Source: a virus. Taken from it: DNA of 24,342 bases. The first letter of the stretch is position 1, and each line of letters begins with the position of its first letter. Of this stretch, positions 9,646 to 19,214 are shown piece after piece. The stretch covers positions 1 through 24,342 of the IMG/VR virus record IMGVR_UViG_3300021440_000119; one strand, 5' to 3'. Both the position numbers and the translations under genes were made by a program. The notes under the pieces are model-generated. The model made no database searches and was not told the origin of the DNA. It saw nothing but the letters and a program-made list of their open reading frames with translations.

Positions 9646-9983
9646 TGGAACTATCGTTTCTTGCAAAGTCGAGTCTGTTGGTCGCGGTGCCTGGCACGGC
9701 GCAGTACGCAGGGCAACTTGCCCGTTACGTAGGCCGCGAATGGGAAGATACCCGTCACGCCTACGTGGCATCTAAAGAGCCGTATAAAGTGGACAGCGAC
9801 TCTGATGACGGCCGACGGCTTTCGAAGCTGATGCGGCGTGAGAGCTCACTGTTGCCAGGCGACCAGGCCACCGCCGAGTACTTTGGACTGCCTTTTGTGC
9901 AGCACCAGAACGTTGAGGGTGAGTGGGTCCCCAGCGCGCCGATTGCGCGAGAAGTTCGGGCCGCAAAGAAAGGTAATGACTAA
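9645..9983 (+). CDS. Small protein preceding the tail sheath (112 aa; DUF2635-like position)
   Basis: Predicted 112 residues. I place the start at the ATG at 9645, on a TGATG overlap with the gp10-like stop; the same frame is open far upstream but that part only shadows the gp10-like gene. An N-terminal strand-like segment (SLLVAVPGTAQYAG) is followed by charged helical sequence (GRRLSKLMRRESSLLPGD). Mu-like phages carry a short protein (Mu gp38, DUF2635) immediately before the sheath gene. This one shares the place and a loosely similar PG...RR...GD spacing, but is longer, so homology is only a suggestion. Confidence 0.6.
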   Translation: MELSFLAKSSLLVAVPGTAQYAGQLARYVGREWEDTRHAYVASKEPYKVDSDSDDGRRLSKLMRRESSLLPGDQATAEYFGLPFVQHQNVEGEWVPSAPIAREVRAAKKGND

Positions 9984-11527
9984 TGCCTGCGAATGTTGCT
10001 GTCACTGGCTATGCAAGTGACTATCGAACGCCGAGTATCGGCATCGAGCTAGTTTTCGCGCAGGGCGAGAATATCTCAGGCGCGGGCACGCGCGAGATTC
10101 TTGTGGTTGCGCCAAAGTCGTCCGCCGGAACTTGGACGGCTGGCACGGTGTACGGCCCGATCAAGGCCGAGCAAGATGTTATCACCGGCGGTGGGGTGGG
10201 TTCGCCCGCGCATCGCATGGCGCAGAAGATCATGCAAGCAAACAAACTTGCGACGATCTATGTGCTTGTTGTAGCGGAGACTTCCGGGGGCTCGCCTGTG
10301 AAGGCGACCGGGACCTTGGCGTGGGGCGGCACTGCAACGTCCAGCTTCAACTACACGTTCTCTGTGGGGGATGAGGACTTCTCGGTCTACATCAAGTCCG
10401 GAGACGCCGCTGCTACCGTAGGGGCAGCCATCAAGGCCACGGTGAACGGGCGTCTGTCCCTTCCGTTCACTGACGAAGGCACGGGAGCGACCAATACGCT
10501 CACCAACAAGTTGGCGGGTACTCGCGGGGGTACAGCCACTTGGAGCCCAAATCGAATCGTAGCACCAGCCCCGGGCAACGGCCTTACATTGACAGCATCG
10601 GCGGCTATTGGCATTGCCACAGCCGGTGCAGATGGGTCTACTACGGAAGCCTCCAACGTTACCGCGGCGCTGCAGTCAGTTGAAGGACGGCACTTTTACT
10701 ACTATGTCTACGATGACGGCAACAACGCCACCGCGCTGGCTGCCATCAAGTCGCATCTCGCGAATAAGGCGCTGCCCCGTTACGGCCGACGCAGCTATCT
10801 GATCACGGGGCACAACGGCACTCTTGCAGCAGCCACTACGATCGCAAACGGGTTGAACTACGAGCGCCAGGAGATTGCATTCCAGCCCATGGGGGATGCT
10901 ACGCCGGACCATCTGGCTGCGCAACTCGTTGCCACCGAGCAATTGGTTCGTGACGCCGACCCTGCGAACGGTCTTATCAACTACTCAGGCCCCGACTGGA
11001 ACATCCGGGCCGCTCGTACGCAGTATTGGCCCGACGAGGACGACATCAACGACGCTATCGCAGCTGGGCTGAGCTGTGTGGCAAGCAAGGTCGGCGGCAC
11101 CTACTTGGTGATGTCGATCACGACCCGCTCGAAGGACGGCAGTGGCACCTATGCGGACTTCCGGGCGGCAGAGTCCCACCGAATCAGTGTCGGCGATGCT
11201 TGTGCCCAGGACCTGACCAACAAGATGGCAGGTAAGCTCGGCAAGGGGTTCATCGCGCATCCCAAAGGTAAGGACGGGTTGCCGAATCCGAACGCGAAGA
11301 TTCCTCCGAACTGCGTCACGGACTTCACTCTGAAGCCCACCTTCACCGATTCCATTTCCGAATGGGCCAAGTCAGGGTGGACGCAGCGGGTGTCCGATTC
11401 GCAGAACAGCCTGTTGGTGGTGAAGTCGCCGGTCAATGCTGGGCGTCTTGAGGCTTCTTTGAGCATCTACGCACGCGACAACCTGTCGCAAGTCACGGTC
11501 CGCATGGCAGAGTCATCTGCGGCCTAA
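9983..11527 (+). CDS. Tail sheath protein (Mu gpL-like)
   Basis: Predicted 514 residues. The sheath surrounds the tube and contracts to drive it through the envelope. Support: length, location before a tube gene of the right size, and character. A conserved-looking N-terminal start (RTPSIGIELVFAQG), a central insertion-like beta domain rich in Thr/Gly (about 105-225), and a C-terminal subtilisin-like core ending in strands (NSLLVVKSPVNAGRLEAS then DNLSQVTVRM) match Mu-type sheaths. The ATG overlaps the previous stop (TAATG at 9981-9985) with AAAGG upstream. The presence of a sheath establishes a contractile tail. Confidence 0.88.
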   Translation: MPANVAVTGYASDYRTPSIGIELVFAQGENISGAGTREILVVAPKSSAGTWTAGTVYGPIKAEQDVITGGGVGSPAHRMAQKIMQANKLATIYVLVVAETSGGSPVKATGTLAWGGTATSSFNYTFSVGDEDFSVYIKSGDAAATVGAAIKATVNGRLSLPFTDEGTGATNTLTNKLAGTRGGTATWSPNRIVAPAPGNGLTLTASAAIGIATAGADGSTTEASNVTAALQSVEGRHFYYYVYDDGNNATALAAIKSHLANKALPRYGRRSYLITGHNGTLAAATTIANGLNYERQEIAFQPMGDATPDHLAAQLVATEQLVRDADPANGLINYSGPDWNIRAARTQYWPDEDDINDAIAAGLSCVASKVGGTYLVMSITTRSKDGSGTYADFRAAESHRISVGDACAQDLTNKMAGKLGKGFIAHPKGKDGLPNPNAKIPPNCVTDFTLKPTFTDSISEWAKSGWTQRVSDSQNSLLVVKSPVNAGRLEASLSIYARDNLSQVTVRMAESSAA

Positions 11528-11535
11528 GGAGTCTT

Positions 11536-11904
11536 ATGCCTGTTGATTACGCACGACAAGTAGTTTTCATCAACGGCGTCGAAGCGACGTTGGCCGAGTC
11601 CTTCGAAATGAAGACCGAGAGCGGTGAACAGCCGATTCTCATTCTGAACGAAGGGCTTGCAGGTTTCACCCCCGGTGCAGGGCAGACCACAATCTCGGGT
11701 ACCTTGTATGTCCCTGTTGGGGGCTTTCAGATTGACGTTCAGTCCTTCTGCGCCAACGGCGAATACGTGCCCATCCAATACGGCGTAGGTCCTGTGGCAT
11801 ACGTCGGTACCGGTAAATTCACGGAAGTGACAATCTCCGGCGGCGTGAACGAGCCTGTGAAGGTTCAGTTCACCTGGCTCGGTGAGAAGAAAGCGATGGA
11901 GTAA
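11536..11904 (+). CDS. Tail tube protein (Mu gpM-like)
   Basis: Predicted 122 residues, the normal size for Mu-type tube subunits, which stack as hexameric rings inside the sheath. Mostly strand-like, starting with an N-terminal FINGVEATLAESFEMKTESG and ending FTWLGEKKAME. One of the strongest ribosome sites in the window, TAAGGAG at 11525-11531, lies 4 nt before the ATG and overlaps the sheath stop, in line with the high copy number of tube subunits. Its stop overlaps the chaperone start (TAATG). Confidence 0.85.
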   Translation: MPVDYARQVVFINGVEATLAESFEMKTESGEQPILILNEGLAGFTPGAGQTTISGTLYVPVGGFQIDVQSFCANGEYVPIQYGVGPVAYVGTGKFTEVTISGGVNEPVKVQFTWLGEKKAME

Positions 11905-12674
11905 TGGACCACGGGCCGCCTACCGATGTTCCCGCTTCTGGCTTGGTCGAGTTCTTGAAGGGCAGACCACGGCCTGGCAAAGTTGTGCCGTTCCCTGTCG
12001 AAGGTGTCGAAGGCACCCGATGGGAGAACGTTCGGATTGAAGTGCCGCCTTGCAGCGCCAACGGCGCTGCCATCCTGGCCGCGCACAACCGCATGAAGGC
12101 CATGCTTCCCAAGGAAGAGTGGAGCACGGAGAGTGCATCCGCAGTTCTTGGGGACCTCACGGCCAAGGAGATGATCGCTCGGACCTGTTTCGAGCCGAAG
12201 AACTACGGCACCGAGGAAAAGCCCTTCTACAAAAAGCACTTCGGCAATTCCGAGGATGTGGAGAGATCACTGTCCTCCGATGAGACCGCGGTGCTTCATG
12301 CATTGATGCTGCAGGTTACGTTCGAAATCGGCCCAAGGCTTTCGATCCTGACGGACGAGGAAGTCGACGCGTGGATCGAGGTGCTGAAAAACGGCCTCGA
12401 CCCTTTAGCGTATCTAGTCTTGCCGGATTTACACGTATTGATACGTGGGTTAGTCAACCGGATAAGCAAGGCAACTGCCTCGTCAAGTACATCGCAAAGC
12501 CCGGATTCCCCGCCCTTGACGTTGCCCGATACCTCGGAATCGAGCCAAGCGATCTCAATGATGGGCACTATCTCCTCTGGAGAGCTGCCGTCAAGGCCAC
12601 CAACTGGTTCAAGTGTAAGTAAGCCGGTTCTTCCGAATGCCGCCACAGTCCGGAAGAAGCCCAAGCGCTCGTAA
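11904..12674 (+). CDS. Tail assembly chaperone, zero-frame product (256 aa)
   Basis: Predicted 256 residues. Genes between tube and tape measure usually encode chaperones that coat the tape measure and recruit tube subunits. The first 165 residues look like a folded domain with a C-terminal helical part (VLHALMLQVTFEIG, DEEVDAWIEVLKNG). After about residue 190 the zero-frame sequence becomes low-complexity and Ser/Pro/Thr-rich, ending in a basic KKPKRS. The -1 frame over the same DNA reads as a compact protein segment, which, with a canonical slippery heptamer at 12401, indicates programmed frameshifting as in other phages. The start is coupled to the tube stop (TAATG). An intrinsic terminator follows within 6 nt of the stop. 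Confidence 0.72.
   Translation: MDHGPPTDVPASGLVEFLKGRPRPGKVVPFPVEGVEGTRWENVRIEVPPCSANGAAILAAHNRMKAMLPKEEWSTESASAVLGDLTAKEMIARTCFEPKNYGTEEKPFYKKHFGNSEDVERSLSSDETAVLHALMLQVTFEIGPRLSILTDEEVDAWIEVLKNGLDPLAYLVLPDLHVLIRGLVNRISKATASSSTSQSPDSPPLTLPDTSESSQAISMMGTISSGELPSRPPTGSSVSKPVLPNAATVRKKPKRS
12401..12461 (+). promoter_or_regulatory. -1 programmed ribosomal frameshift signal (slippery heptamer plus downstream stem-loop)
   Basis: C CCT TTA at 12401-12407 has exactly the X XXY YYZ form in the phase of the chaperone reading frame. Downstream, CACGTA (12432-12437) pairs with TACGTG (12442-12447) around a TTGA loop, and an outer CCGG (12423-12426) can pair with CCGG (12458-12461). The spacer is about 15 nt to the outer stem. 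A second, weaker candidate slip site, G AAA AAC, lies at 12386-12392 in the same phase. Confidence 0.6.
12407..12622 (+). CDS. Tail assembly chaperone, -1 frame extension (frameshifted C-terminus, 71 aa)
   Basis: After slipping at C CCT TTA (12401-12407), translation would continue in the -1 frame from 12407 to a stop at 12620-12622, giving a 239-residue fusion (168 residues shared plus 71). This frame is open from 12284, just after a TGA at 12281. The extension contains aromatic and hydrophobic residues spaced as in a globular domain (LVKYIAKPGF, VARYLGIEPSDL, YLLWRAAVKATNWF). Its codons end mostly in C or G from about 12465 onward, like real genes here. An independent start is unlikely: the only candidate nearby is a GTG at 12371 without a ribosome site. 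Unusually, both products are about equal in length. Confidence 0.65.
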   Translation, partial: SVSSLAGFTRIDTWVSQPDKQGNCLVKYIAKPGFPALDVARYLGIEPSDLNDGHYLLWRAAVKATNWFKCK

Positions 12675-12735: not shown

Positions 12736-12806
12736 AGCTCGATCGTCCAATGCTAGGACACCGCGTTCTGACCGCGACAATGTGAGTTCAATTCTCGCTC
12801 GAGCTA
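12736..12806 (+). tRNA. tRNA-Gln (anticodon CTG), slightly atypical, no encoded CCA
   Basis: A 71-nt cloverleaf can be drawn: acceptor AGCTCGA (12736-12742) / TCGAGCT (12799-12805), 7 of 7 pairs; D stem GTCC/GGAC (12745-12748, 12756-12759) with loop AATGCTA; anticodon stem CCGCG/CGCGA (12761-12765, 12773-12777), 4 of 5 pairs, with loop TTCTGAC and anticodon CTG at 12768-12770; variable region CAAT; T stem GTGAG/CTCGC (12782-12786, 12794-12798) with loop TTCAATT; discriminator A12806. Conserved A14, A21, T33, purine 37, T54, T55, C56 and A58 are present, and A15 can pair with T48. Oddities: C instead of G19 in the D loop, C at position 9, a C-A mismatch at 27-43, and A73 rather than the G73 usual for E. 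coli tRNA-Gln. CCA is not encoded. It would read CAG codons if charged. Confidence 0.78.
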
Positions 12807-12810
12807 CTTT

Positions 12811-15399
12811 ATGGCGTTCCTCAGATATGACATCAGTGTAATTGGCGTCGACAAGGTTCGGCAGGCGATCCGCCAGGTCGAGTCCGAGGTCGAAGGCGTC
12901 GGCCGGCGCCAAGTGCTGCACGACCCCCTAGGGCGCCGCATGCCTCGCGGAAAAGGCCCCCTAGGCGCGAACGACAACGCCAGCACCCGTACCGCAGAGG
13001 CCCTTTACCGCCGACAAGAGCGCTACCAAGACCGCCTCAACAAGGCAGAGCGCCTGTCCAATGACCGGAATGCGACGTCTCAGTACCGGCAGCAGCTGAA
13101 AGCGCAGAAGAAGCTGCGCGGCGCCAATGACAACGCCGACTTGAAGTCAGCCGAGGCCGATTACCGTCGCCGTGAGACGCATCGCGCCCGTATGCGCGGT
13201 GTGAATGATAACGCCAGCGCCAAATCTGCAGCTGCAATTGCTGCCCAAGAAGAGAAGCTGAGGGCGGCGGCCATTCAGCGTGAAGAGCGCACGCGTCTCC
13301 GCATGGCGGATCGCGTGGCGCAGGCTGAGTATCGTGGCCGACTGCAGACCGCGAACACGACCAAGACTGTACTGGGCAACACCGCGTCGAAGGTCGCGTC
13401 CATCGGCAAGAGTGCTCTGGCTCTGACAGGCCTCGGCGGCGGGGCGCTGTTCGCGTTGTCGGTCCACTCCGTAGCTTCGCAGCATGCGAAGGCAGCGGAC
13501 CTGGCAAACCAGCTCGAGGGGCGTGACGCGACGCCCAAGTCCTTGGAGGCCACCAAGCGTAACGTTCTGGCCTACGCGAGGTCGACGCGGGGTTTCGCCA
13601 CCGAGGAAGTCCTGGGCGCCATGAGTGCCTTCCAAGAGCAAGCGGGCGAGCCCGTTGCCACCAAGCAAATTGCTCCCCATCTCACGGAGATGGCCCTTGC
13701 CACGGGCTCCGATGTAGAGACCCTCGGTAAGATGGATGCGTCTCTGTTCCGTTCGCTGCGCAACGGTGCGGGCGGCGCTGAGCTCAGTGTCGAGGCGCTA
13801 ATCGCAGCCGTGGATGTCCTAAACCGCAAGTTTGCGGCCATGGGGCAGAAGGGCGCTGTCGAGTTGAAGGACATGGCTCATCTAGGGCCTGAACTCGCCG
13901 AGGTTTCGGCGGACTACGCCGGTAACCGCTTCCAGAATATCGTCAGTTCGGCCGCGGCGCTGCAGAATGTTCGGCAGTATACGACTTCGCCCGACGAGGC
14001 GATGACCTCGCTGCAGAACCTGAAGAACGACCTCTACAACCACACAGACGAAGCCCGGCAGTTGATGGTCTCCCGCGGTATCAAGGGCGACGTCTGGGAG
14101 AACCGCGAGCATCGCAAGCTGCTGCCTTTTGAGCAGTTGATGCCGAAGCTTATCGACGCCACTGGCGGCGATATGGAGAAACTCAACAAGATCGCCAACG
14201 TTCGTGGCACTCGGGCGTACAAGGCCTACATCGACCCGTACAACACGGCGCTCGACAAGGCCCGGTCCGAAGGCAAGAGTGAGAAAGAAGCCCGCGCCGC
14301 AGGGCGCGCGGCGGTCGTAGCCAAACACCGGGAGTTCCAAGGCCTCGAGCAAACCCGAGAAGAGGTCAAGGCCAAAGCGGACTTCCGCATGGCGGAGCCG
14401 GACAAGGCCTTCGAAGCGCAGATGCGGAACCTGACGCAGGTCGTCGGGGAAACGCTTCTGCCGCAGCTGGCAGCATTGATTCCTTCGATCGCGAAGCTTG
14501 TGCCTTACATGCAGTCGTTGGCAGAGGCAACGGTCAAGGCCGCGAAGTGGATCTCCGAGTCCCCTTGGGAGGCGGGTCTTTTAGCCATCGGCACGGTTCT
14601 CGCCGCGGAAATAGCCAAGGCTGGAATTAGCGGTATTATTTCGGCGGGGCTTCAGCGTCTTCTCGTAGGTGCGGCACCCGCCGCGATCACGGCAGCTACA
14701 GCGGCCACAGCGGCCACAGCGGCCACAGCGGCCACAGCGGCCACAGCAGCAACGGCGGCCACGGCGGCCACAGCGGCCCCTACTGCAGCAGTTGCAGGGG
14801 CCGCGGCATTGCCTGCACTAGCCAAGGCGGCGCCTCTCGCAGCGGGGCTTTTGGCCCCTGTTGCCATAGGCGCAGCTTTAGGCATTGGTGCCTACGCAGG
14901 CATCGCCGTGGGCGGGCGCAACACCTACGACAAAGCCAACGCCGACACCTCGCATGTCATGAAGACCTTGGGGGCAGCCCAAGGTGGAGACCTCGAGAAG
15001 ACCATTGGCTACGCCGAGATACGGCTGAAGCAAATCAAGGACGAGGCCGGAATGTTTGGCTCGTTCATGGACTTGTTCGGAGCTGGGCCGGAGGCGGAAA
15101 TCAAAGGCCTCGAGGAACAGATCAAGACCAAGAAGGCTGAGTATCAGTACTGGCTGAACAACGGCAAGCGCGAAACCGAGGACATGCGCAAGAACAATGA
15201 GGCGCGTGCATGGCAAGAGAAGAACGGCGACGGTGGGGTGAACCGCCAAGAAGATCTTCAGATCCTCGGCAAAGTGTTTGACAGCGCCGCGAACAAGATT
15301 GTGGCCTCAAATGAAGCCATGGCGCGGGCCGTAGCCGGCGGCTCGCCAAGTACGACTCTCAACACAGGCTATCAGCCTTCACAACCGACGGTCAAGTAA
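12811..15399 (+). CDS. Tail tape measure protein
   Basis: Predicted 862 residues, the longest gene in the window. Tape measure proteins set tail length and are later ejected to help DNA cross the inner membrane. The N-terminus (MAFLRYDISVIGVDKVRQAI) is typical. Residues about 52-155 are four 26-residue charged helical repeats, and most of the rest is long helix. Hydrophobic stretches lie at about 586-657 (including an Ala-Ala-Thr repeat at 628-657) and about 662-702, rich in Ala/Gly, suited to membrane insertion. No lysozyme or peptidase motif is evident. The ATG at 12811 has no real Shine-Dalgarno sequence and starts 4 nt after the tRNA-like element; at most a GAG at 12801-12803 inside the acceptor stem could serve. 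Confidence 0.9.
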   Translation: MAFLRYDISVIGVDKVRQAIRQVESEVEGVGRRQVLHDPLGRRMPRGKGPLGANDNASTRTAEALYRRQERYQDRLNKAERLSNDRNATSQYRQQLKAQKKLRGANDNADLKSAEADYRRRETHRARMRGVNDNASAKSAAAIAAQEEKLRAAAIQREERTRLRMADRVAQAEYRGRLQTANTTKTVLGNTASKVASIGKSALALTGLGGGALFALSVHSVASQHAKAADLANQLEGRDATPKSLEATKRNVLAYARSTRGFATEEVLGAMSAFQEQAGEPVATKQIAPHLTEMALATGSDVETLGKMDASLFRSLRNGAGGAELSVEALIAAVDVLNRKFAAMGQKGAVELKDMAHLGPELAEVSADYAGNRFQNIVSSAAALQNVRQYTTSPDEAMTSLQNLKNDLYNHTDEARQLMVSRGIKGDVWENREHRKLLPFEQLMPKLIDATGGDMEKLNKIANVRGTRAYKAYIDPYNTALDKARSEGKSEKEARAAGRAAVVAKHREFQGLEQTREEVKAKADFRMAEPDKAFEAQMRNLTQVVGETLLPQLAALIPSIAKLVPYMQSLAEATVKAAKWISESPWEAGLLAIGTVLAAEIAKAGISGIISAGLQRLLVGAAPAAITAATAATAATAATAATAATAATAATAATAAPTAAVAGAAALPALAKAAPLAAGLLAPVAIGAALGIGAYAGIAVGGRNTYDKANADTSHVMKTLGAAQGGDLEKTIGYAEIRLKQIKDEAGMFGSFMDLFGAGPEAEIKGLEEQIKTKKAEYQYWLNNGKRETEDMRKNNEARAWQEKNGDGGVNRQEDLQILGKVFDSAANKIVASNEAMARAVAGGSPSTTLNTGYQPSQPTVK
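12964..13275 (+). repeat. Four 78-bp (26-residue) repeats in the tape measure N-terminal region
   Basis: Units begin at residues 52, 78, 104 and 130 of the tape measure protein. Units 1, 3 and 4 open with GANDNAS, GANDNAD and GVNDNAS; unit 2 is degenerate but keeps A, R, A, Y, R and Q at the matching positions (for example YRRQ in unit 1, YRQQ in unit 2, YRRR in unit 3). A regular period of 26 suits a coiled-coil rod and is consistent with growth by internal duplication. Confidence 0.65.
14692..14781 (+). repeat. 9-bp tandem repeat (GCGGCCACA) in the tape measure gene
   Basis: Ten in-frame 9-bp units encode Ala-Ala-Thr (the last Ala-Ala-Pro). Five consecutive units (14701-14745) are perfect GCGGCCACA; flanking units are GCAGCTACA, GCAGCAACG, GCGGCCACG, GCGGCCACA and GCGGCCCCT. 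This is a slippage-prone minisatellite between two hydrophobic segments of the protein. Confidence 0.9.
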
Positions 15400-18450: not shown

Positions 18451-18774
18451 ATGTCCTTGTGCGCCTTCGTACTCCCGCCCATCCCAGGGCTGCCGTCGTT
18501 GGCGTTGCCGGCGTTCCCGCCCAGCTTTCCTATTCCGACGCTGCCGACGATCCCCGGCATCGACTTGGCGCTGGTCCTGCCGCCTATCCCGGGGCTGCCG
18601 GCATTGGCGTTGCCGGCATTCCCTCCCAGCTTTCCGATTCCGACATTGCCTACCATTCCGGGCATCGACCTAGCGCTGGTGCTGCCTCCCATCCCTGGCC
18701 TGCCCTCATTGTCGCTGCCGGCGTTCCCGCCCAATTTCCCCCTGCCGACGTTCCCCGTCTGCCCCTTGGACTAA
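18451..18774 (+). CDS. Proline-rich three-repeat protein (107 aa)
   Basis: Predicted 107 residues composed almost entirely of Pro, Leu, Ile, Phe, Ala, Gly and Ser with hardly any charge. After a six-residue start (MSLCAF), a 35-residue unit beginning VLPPIPGLP and containing LPAFPPSFPIPTLPTIPG is repeated twice in full and a third time for 31 residues, ending FPVCPLD. One Cys lies near each end (Cys4 and a second near the C-terminus). No signal peptide is seen. It starts one base after the spike stop with no strong ribosome site. Function is unrecognised. Placed between spike and gp46-like genes, it may be a spike accessory or tip, or a proline-rich connector in the baseplate. Codons diverge between repeats while the amino acids stay the same, so the protein is under selection. 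Confidence 0.75.
   Translation: MSLCAFVLPPIPGLPSLALPAFPPSFPIPTLPTIPGIDLALVLPPIPGLPALALPAFPPSFPIPTLPTIPGIDLALVLPPIPGLPSLSLPAFPPNFPLPTFPVCPLD
18469..18771 (+). repeat. 105-bp tandem repeat (2.9 copies) encoding the proline-rich protein
   Basis: Units are 18469-18573, 18574-18678 and 18679-18771. Many differences between units are at third codon positions (for example CCGCCC, CCGCCT and CCTCCC for Pro-Pro), showing old duplications held by protein-level selection rather than recent slippage. Confidence 0.9.
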
Positions 18775-18776
18775 CC

Positions 18777-19214
18777 ATGAATGGATGCGGACTTTTCCCC
18801 TACGGCTTCGGCTATGCCGGCATGGCCGAGGTCATCCCCCCGCCTGTAGACGAGTTGTCTCGGGCGGTTGACGGCGCGGCCTTCATCAACGCATGGGGCG
18901 ACTTCGAAGTAGACAATCAAGGTGATGTCGCCAAGACCACATACCTGAAGCAGCGTGTCGCGCTGCTTCTGCGGTCCGCCATGGGGTCCATTGCTGGGCA
19001 GCAAACCCTTGGCTTGCAGGTGCAAAGGGCCGTCGACAACTCTTGGCGGTACCGCATGACCCGCGCAGTGGAGAAGGCCCTGGCACCTGCGGTTCTTGAC
19101 GGCAGCATTGACATCATACGAGTCGTACTTCAGCAAACAACGAGTCTTAGGGCCAGCGTTACCGTCGTGTACATCGCGCGGGATACCGGCGAGGAACAAG
19201 AGGTGTCAATCTAA
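18777..19214 (+). CDS. Baseplate wedge protein (Mu gp46 / gp25-like)
   Basis: Predicted 145 residues. The gp25/gp46 class are small wedge proteins placed before the J-type baseplate gene. Features: VDELSRAVDGAAFINAWGDFEV near residues 24-45, a helical region TTYLKQRVALLLRSAMGS, then helix RYRMTRAVEKALAPAV and a final beta hairpin (IDIIRVVLQ and ASVTVVYIARDTGEE), as in the family. Start chosen at the ATG at 18777, two bases after the previous stop; ribosome site is weak. The stop overlaps the J-like start (TAATG). Identification relies strongly on gene order. Confidence 0.72.
   Translation: MNGCGLFPYGFGYAGMAEVIPPPVDELSRAVDGAAFINAWGDFEVDNQGDVAKTTYLKQRVALLLRSAMGSIAGQQTLGLQVQRAVDNSWRYRMTRAVEKALAPAVLDGSIDIIRVVLQQTTSLRASVTVVYIARDTGEEQEVSI

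Follow-up and report, generated by a model that had tools for sequence, protein, structure and literature searches.

Programmed ribosomal frameshifting in tail assembly chaperones is textbook knowledge. The G and GT proteins of phage λ provide the model in which the shared core sits on the tape measure protein and the domain added by the frameshift on the tail tube subunits (PMC5009743). The zero frame of λ stops 15 nt past the slip and the -1 tail spans 432 nt, GT being the long form. The record of phage HK97 annotates a -1 frameshift for gp13/gp14, with a zero-frame overrun of at most about 50 nt. In phage Mu, gp41 (AF083977) shifts by -2 at GGGGGCGA, with an overrun of ~18 nt and a longer frameshift product (187 versus 144 aa). 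In these three phages, the second domain is encoded after the stop of the first gene, whereas in the locus described here both frames code over about 200 bases.

The window, that is the whole stretch of 24,342 nucleotides that was analysed, corresponds to positions 1-24,342 of the IMG/VR virus record IMGVR_UViG_3300021440_000119. The features of interest are collected in Table 1. The chaperone gene is located directly between the tube and tape measure genes in the window as well as in two related loci, L003 and MW202476 (L002). The tube assignment combines the weak Pfam match with gene position, and the tube homologues of L003 and L002 occupy the same position. The chaperone ATG shares bases with the tube stop codon (TAATG). 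Downstream of the tape measure gene, the window encodes DNA_circ_N-like and gpP-like proteins, both matches being weak.

Table 1. Positions of the chaperone gene, its frameshift elements and the neighbouring tail genes in the window
Feature	Position	Strand	Evidence
Tail sheath gene (myophage)	9983..11527	+	phrog_165, E 6.7e-39
Tail tube protein gene	11536..11904	+	weak Pfam Phage_tube_2 match, E 0.019; between sheath and chaperone
Tail assembly chaperone gene, zero frame (G-like product, 256 aa)	11904..12674	+	ORF; AF2 core match; 31 homologues aligned
Shine-Dalgarno-like GAGGTG, 17 nt upstream of the heptamer	12378..12383	+	duplex -7.2 kcal/mol
Slippery heptamer C CCT TTA, zero-frame phase	12401..12407	+	in-phase heptamer at the same place in both sets of relatives
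C-terminal domain of the -1 frame, T-like (71 residues and stop)	12407..12622	+	conserved in 32 relatives; resampling; AF2
Zero-frame C-terminal extension (88 residues): predicted helix, then Ser/Pro-rich disordered tail	12408..12671	+	
Hairpin 12432-12447 with outer CCGG stem	12423..12461	+	can be drawn; z -0.74, -0.47; no conserved pairs
Tape measure protein gene	12811..15399	+	Pfam PhageMin_Tail, E 7.7e-8, just under its cut-off

Other elements were observed in the same region. A tRNA-Gln gene (anticodon CTG, 12736-12807, + strand) separates the chaperone and tape measure genes of the late operon. It is missing from this gap in all 19 related loci that were scanned, although tRNA genes occur elsewhere in the tail region of L015 (Asn, Met) and of L022 (Met, Phe). 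A 9-base repeat (ACAGCGGCC) occurs nine times at 14698-14778 inside the tape measure gene, where it encodes an Ala/Thr-rich stretch. A 105-base unit is repeated 2.5 times at 18475-18733 with 83% match and overlaps a pair of long ORFs, 18451-18774 and 18459-19214, whose frames differ.

The heptamer has the X XXY YYZ phase, the zero frame being read GAC CCT TTA GCG. The -1 frame of the window contains no stop across 12284-12622, so that the dual-coding stretch, 12407-12622, measures 216 nt with the stop included. The fused -1 product has 239 aa versus 256 aa for the zero-frame product.

Neither product showed any sequence match in Pfam, PHROGs or PDB. The shared core is predicted to adopt a tail chaperone fold. 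In the AF2 model of the zero-frame product, most of residues 41-140 form a confident core with pLDDT above 90, residues 173-196 form a helix and the end is disordered. The best solved match of the core model was the HK97 tail assembly chaperone 2ob9_A (VIA-align Z-score of 9.2, rmsd of 3.5 over 103 aligned residues). The next matches were YqbN (3klu) with a Z-score of 7.0, then 4.4, and the top BFVD rows for the model included tail assembly chaperones, weakly. The core and the -1 tail were modelled in separate runs, from alignments that omit one row stemming from the annotated phage collection. Modelled alone with AF2, the -1 tail forms a small alpha-beta domain with a pLDDT of 88.9; this model had no convincing structural match (best Z-score of 2.5) and no match to any known T protein.

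Used as a direct query, the core of the window chaperone returned no matches in viral_contigs or phages. Relatives were reached via the tube protein, which led to L003, and via the sheath, which led to MW202476.1 (L002). Both carry a chaperone gene in the same place with an in-phase heptamer, T TTT TTA in L003 and C CCT TTA in L002, and their -1 tails align with that of the window. The alignments of these three loci were used to reach a wider group, and a profile built from the three fused proteins matched two overlapping frames in nearly every locus. Scanning genome_contigs twice with sheath alignments recovered no relatives.

The first set comprised 33 distinct phages, window included, distributed in 16 clusters at 50% core identity. 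Core identity averages 37% over all pairs, and most members share about 30-45% with the window chaperone. Each of the 33 carries an in-phase heptamer at the equivalent place (CCCTTTA in 25, CCCTTTT in 4, TTTTTTA in 3 and CCCTTTC in 1). All 33 also possess the -1 tail, with a length of 61 to 83 residues, or 53 in L047, which is cut by the contig end. In each of the 32 closed cases, the zero frame passes the -1 stop, by 31 to 172 nt, and encodes the longer product (on average 269 versus 242 residues). The overlap ranges from 183 to 249 nt in the group. A short zero-frame segment past the -1 stop is kept in all relatives of this set, reading T.E.A...A..L in most of them. The distance from the sheath end to the chaperone is about 0.4-0.7 kb in most loci versus about 1.4-1.8 kb in L032 and L033, where something besides the tube gene may be present.

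A scan with a 25-member sheath alignment provided about 40 further loci, which were not used to define the pattern. Both the profiles applied to this second set and the requirement for an in-phase X XXY YYZ close to where the core match ends were fixed beforehand from the first set. Among the 31 distinct new sequences, of which L058 and L089 are nearly identical, an in-phase heptamer was present at the expected place in 31/31 and the -1 tail scored 42 to 108 bits against the first-set profile. The zero frame extends past the -1 stop in all 30 sequences that allow the comparison; the contig of L091 ends too early for it. The in-phase heptamer closest to the expected place is GGGCCCC in L082, with T TTT TTA 9 nt further on. 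Five loci lacked a chaperone match that could be used, and the sequence of L067 stops within the core; where the contig is short, this is likely to explain the missing match. Over both sets, no complete member was seen without the slip site or without the -1 tail.

The recurrence of the in-phase heptamer, the -1 ORF and the zero-frame overrun at one place in the relatives goes far beyond chance. Synonymous choice would produce CCT-TTA in about 0.6% of Pro-Leu pairs, and it is observed at the slip site in 25/33. TTA represents on average 3% of Leu codons, yet occupies the slip site in 28/33. To assess each frame of the overlap, 200 synonymous-codon resamples were generated per phage, the scoring profiles excluding the phage itself and its close relatives. 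The real -1 tail scored above all 200 zero-frame synonymous resamples in 32/32 phages. The zero-frame tail scored above all 200 resamples in 29/32, the exceptions being L003, L030 and L050; in the window it did so narrowly (31.5 versus 29.2 bits for the best resample). In 16/16 independent pairs, third positions of the zero frame showed higher conservation within the overlap than within the core (Wilcoxon p of 1.5e-5), and those of the -1 frame did so in 15/16 (p of 3e-5). Multiplied over the phages, the chance of finding the -1 frame open is about 1e-28; the corresponding figure for the zero frame, with the -1 protein taken as given, is about 1e-22. Both are upper-level figures which ignore kinship. 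By these comparisons both frames are under selection in the overlap, and comparative evidence establishes the slip site, the selection on both frames and the core fold.

These results bear on a sequence-only reading of the window, which had proposed a programmed -1 frameshift in a tail chaperone, with two products of about the same length, unlike the usual short/long pair, and possibly two different C-termini encoded by 12407-12622. The figures it gave for the heptamer phase, the open -1 frame, the 256 and 239 residues and the 216-bp overlap were exact. The frameshift is borne out by the in-phase heptamers of both sets and the conserved -1 tail, and the chaperone identity by the match to 2ob9_A and by the gene order. 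The layout of near-equal products extends to the relatives, in which the zero-frame product is the longer. Two C-termini agree with the constraint on both frames and with a Ser/Pro-rich tail facing a modelled alpha-beta domain. That reading was to fall if relatives conserved neither slip site nor -1 frame, and the opposite was found; the per-frame analysis in homologues that it had suggested likewise revealed constraint on both.

Its proposal of a hairpin with an outer stem after the heptamer fared less well: the structure can be drawn, but it is neither unusually stable nor conserved. The stability of the window region was no better than that of shuffles (z of -0.74 and -0.47), and RNAalifold found zero conserved pairs over 32 slip regions. 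A role of hairpin 12423-12461 as stimulator is not supported, and no downstream structure of the dnaX type was found in these pseudoknot-free predictions. Most relatives exhibit GGAGGG shortly upstream of the heptamer, and a dnaX-type upstream stimulator is expected at about 10-14 nt. Pairing of this element with the 16S tail has a mean energy of -9.5 kcal/mol versus -3.9 kcal/mol at core control sites. In a synonymous test, the element did not significantly exceed what follows from codon usage and from the Glu-Gly residues encoded there. The GAGGTG of the window is weaker and farther from the heptamer than the GGAGGG of the relatives. Compared with a hairpin, the Shine-Dalgarno-like sequence ahead of the slip would be the better candidate for a stimulator in the relatives, and GAGGTG possibly acts as a weak one in the window. 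In E. coli, C_CC.U_UU.A belongs to the heptamers with more than 0.10% shifting in the absence of stimulators (PMC4066793).

The -1 tail could be reached in ways other than ribosomal slippage. It might belong to an independent overlapping gene that has a start codon of its own, and the -1 frame of the window does hold one possible start, GTG 12371. However, in 14 of the 33 phages the stretch from the preceding -1 stop to the conserved -1 tail contains no ATG, GTG or TTG; in L003 this stop is immediately adjacent to the heptamer. In these 14 phages the -1 tail is therefore reachable only by a frame shift, which rules out an own start there unless non-canonical starts are used. An independent start also leaves the invariant in-phase heptamer unexplained, and we consider this origin very improbable. 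Transcriptional slippage might join the frames instead, as runs of at least 6 T in L003, L014, L045 and L086 would allow, but the majority carry CCCTTTA, with three T only, and the heptamer sits in the reading frame exactly as tandem tRNA slippage requires; we give this mechanism hardly any weight. A sequencing or assembly indel splitting one ancestral frame in the window would leave just such a frame change. It is refuted by the relatives, the same arrangement being found in 63 other records from independent assemblies with both frames constrained, and its probability is negligible.

A different objection concerns the zero frame: only the -1 tail might be functional, the extension being passive read-on through a sequence without stops. 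The window extension is indeed largely predicted to be disordered, its resampling margin is small, its codon usage is slightly further from that of the genome, and mean identity in the group is 30% for the extension versus 35% for the -1 tail. Against this, the zero-frame tail is conserved beyond the demands of the -1 protein in 29/32 phages and the wobble positions of the -1 frame are held in 15/16 pairs. Moreover, in none of the 32 closed cases of the first set does the zero frame end before the -1 stop, and a similar short C-terminal stretch follows that stop in most relatives. Passive read-on is unlikely, though it keeps more credit than the three alternatives above.

We regard it as very likely, from comparative sequence evidence, that the chaperone gene undergoes programmed -1 frameshifting to yield two proteins with a shared core and alternative C-termini. 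Expression, the ratio of the products, the direction taken by the majority of ribosomes and the roles of the two C-termini we infer as follows. The shared core would consist of residues 1-168 of both products. Judging from λ, most ribosomes would stay in frame and produce the 256-residue protein ending with the helix and the Ser/Pro-rich tail. A minority would slip back one base, with tRNA-Pro and tRNA-Leu on C CCT TTA, and produce the 239-residue protein ending in a small folded domain. By analogy with λ (PMC5009743), the core would coat the tape measure protein, and the T-like domain of the rarer -1 product would probably recruit tube subunits to the chaperone-coated tape measure. The common product would bring its own conserved C-terminus, in which a Ser/Pro-rich linker follows the helix; most relatives add a short motif at the very end, past the -1 stop.

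By codon usage, the -1 frame tends to come out as the older of the two (21/32, p of 0.027, kinship ignored). Together with the disorder of the zero-frame tail, this tendency faintly suggests that the extended G-like frame overprinted the T-like domain. We slightly favour a wider interpretation, in which the frameshift picks between two full functional C-terminal domains encoded on the same ~200 bases across a broad group of uncultured myophages, with overprinting of the T-like domain as the origin of the zero-frame domain and with separate jobs for the two in tail assembly. With its measurable double constraint, the group would in any case represent a long-lived bacterial-virus case of frameshift-driven dual coding. 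It poses the question of the job performed by an extra C-terminus on a G-like protein.

The same arrangement with C CCT TTA is present in a public record, MW202476.1 (uncultured Caudoviricetes, Manatee Spring), where only the zero frame is annotated, as hypothetical protein UOF77310, and the -1 tail has no annotation. Annotation restricted to the longest ORF loses the frameshift product, as happened there. This record is titled Siphoviridae sp., yet its genes include a tail sheath and a baseplate set resembling that of Mu. Our literature search, mostly of open-access articles, retrieved no report of a dual-coding frameshifted tail chaperone or of a CCCTTTA frameshift in this arrangement.

Frameshifting that swaps C-termini of comparable length over a dual-coding stretch has been described for alphavirus 6K/TF and lactophage A2 cro (PMC5009743). 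These proteins are unrelated to those studied here and do not act in tail assembly, so that the likeness is one of mechanism and not of membership. Among tail chaperones, the locus resembles λ G/GT (PMC5009743) in its position between the tail tube or major tail protein and the tape measure, in the predicted -1 slip at X XXY YYZ, in the shared N-terminal core and in a C-terminal domain that would be made only by frameshift. Unlike in λ, the zero frame continues beyond the end of the -1 tail, and the shorter of the two products is the frameshifted one. The modelled core fold is shared with the HK97 chaperone (2ob9), with no sequence similarity found and a far longer overlap than the HK97 overrun. 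With Mu, the locus shares the order sheath, tube, chaperone, tape measure, DNA circularization N and gpP, and differs in the size of the shift, the overrun and which product is longer. Because the short/long layout of λ, HK97 and Mu is absent, we set the system apart as a variant: by its predicted fold and its position it would belong to the G/GT kind, but with two C-termini encoded over the same bases.
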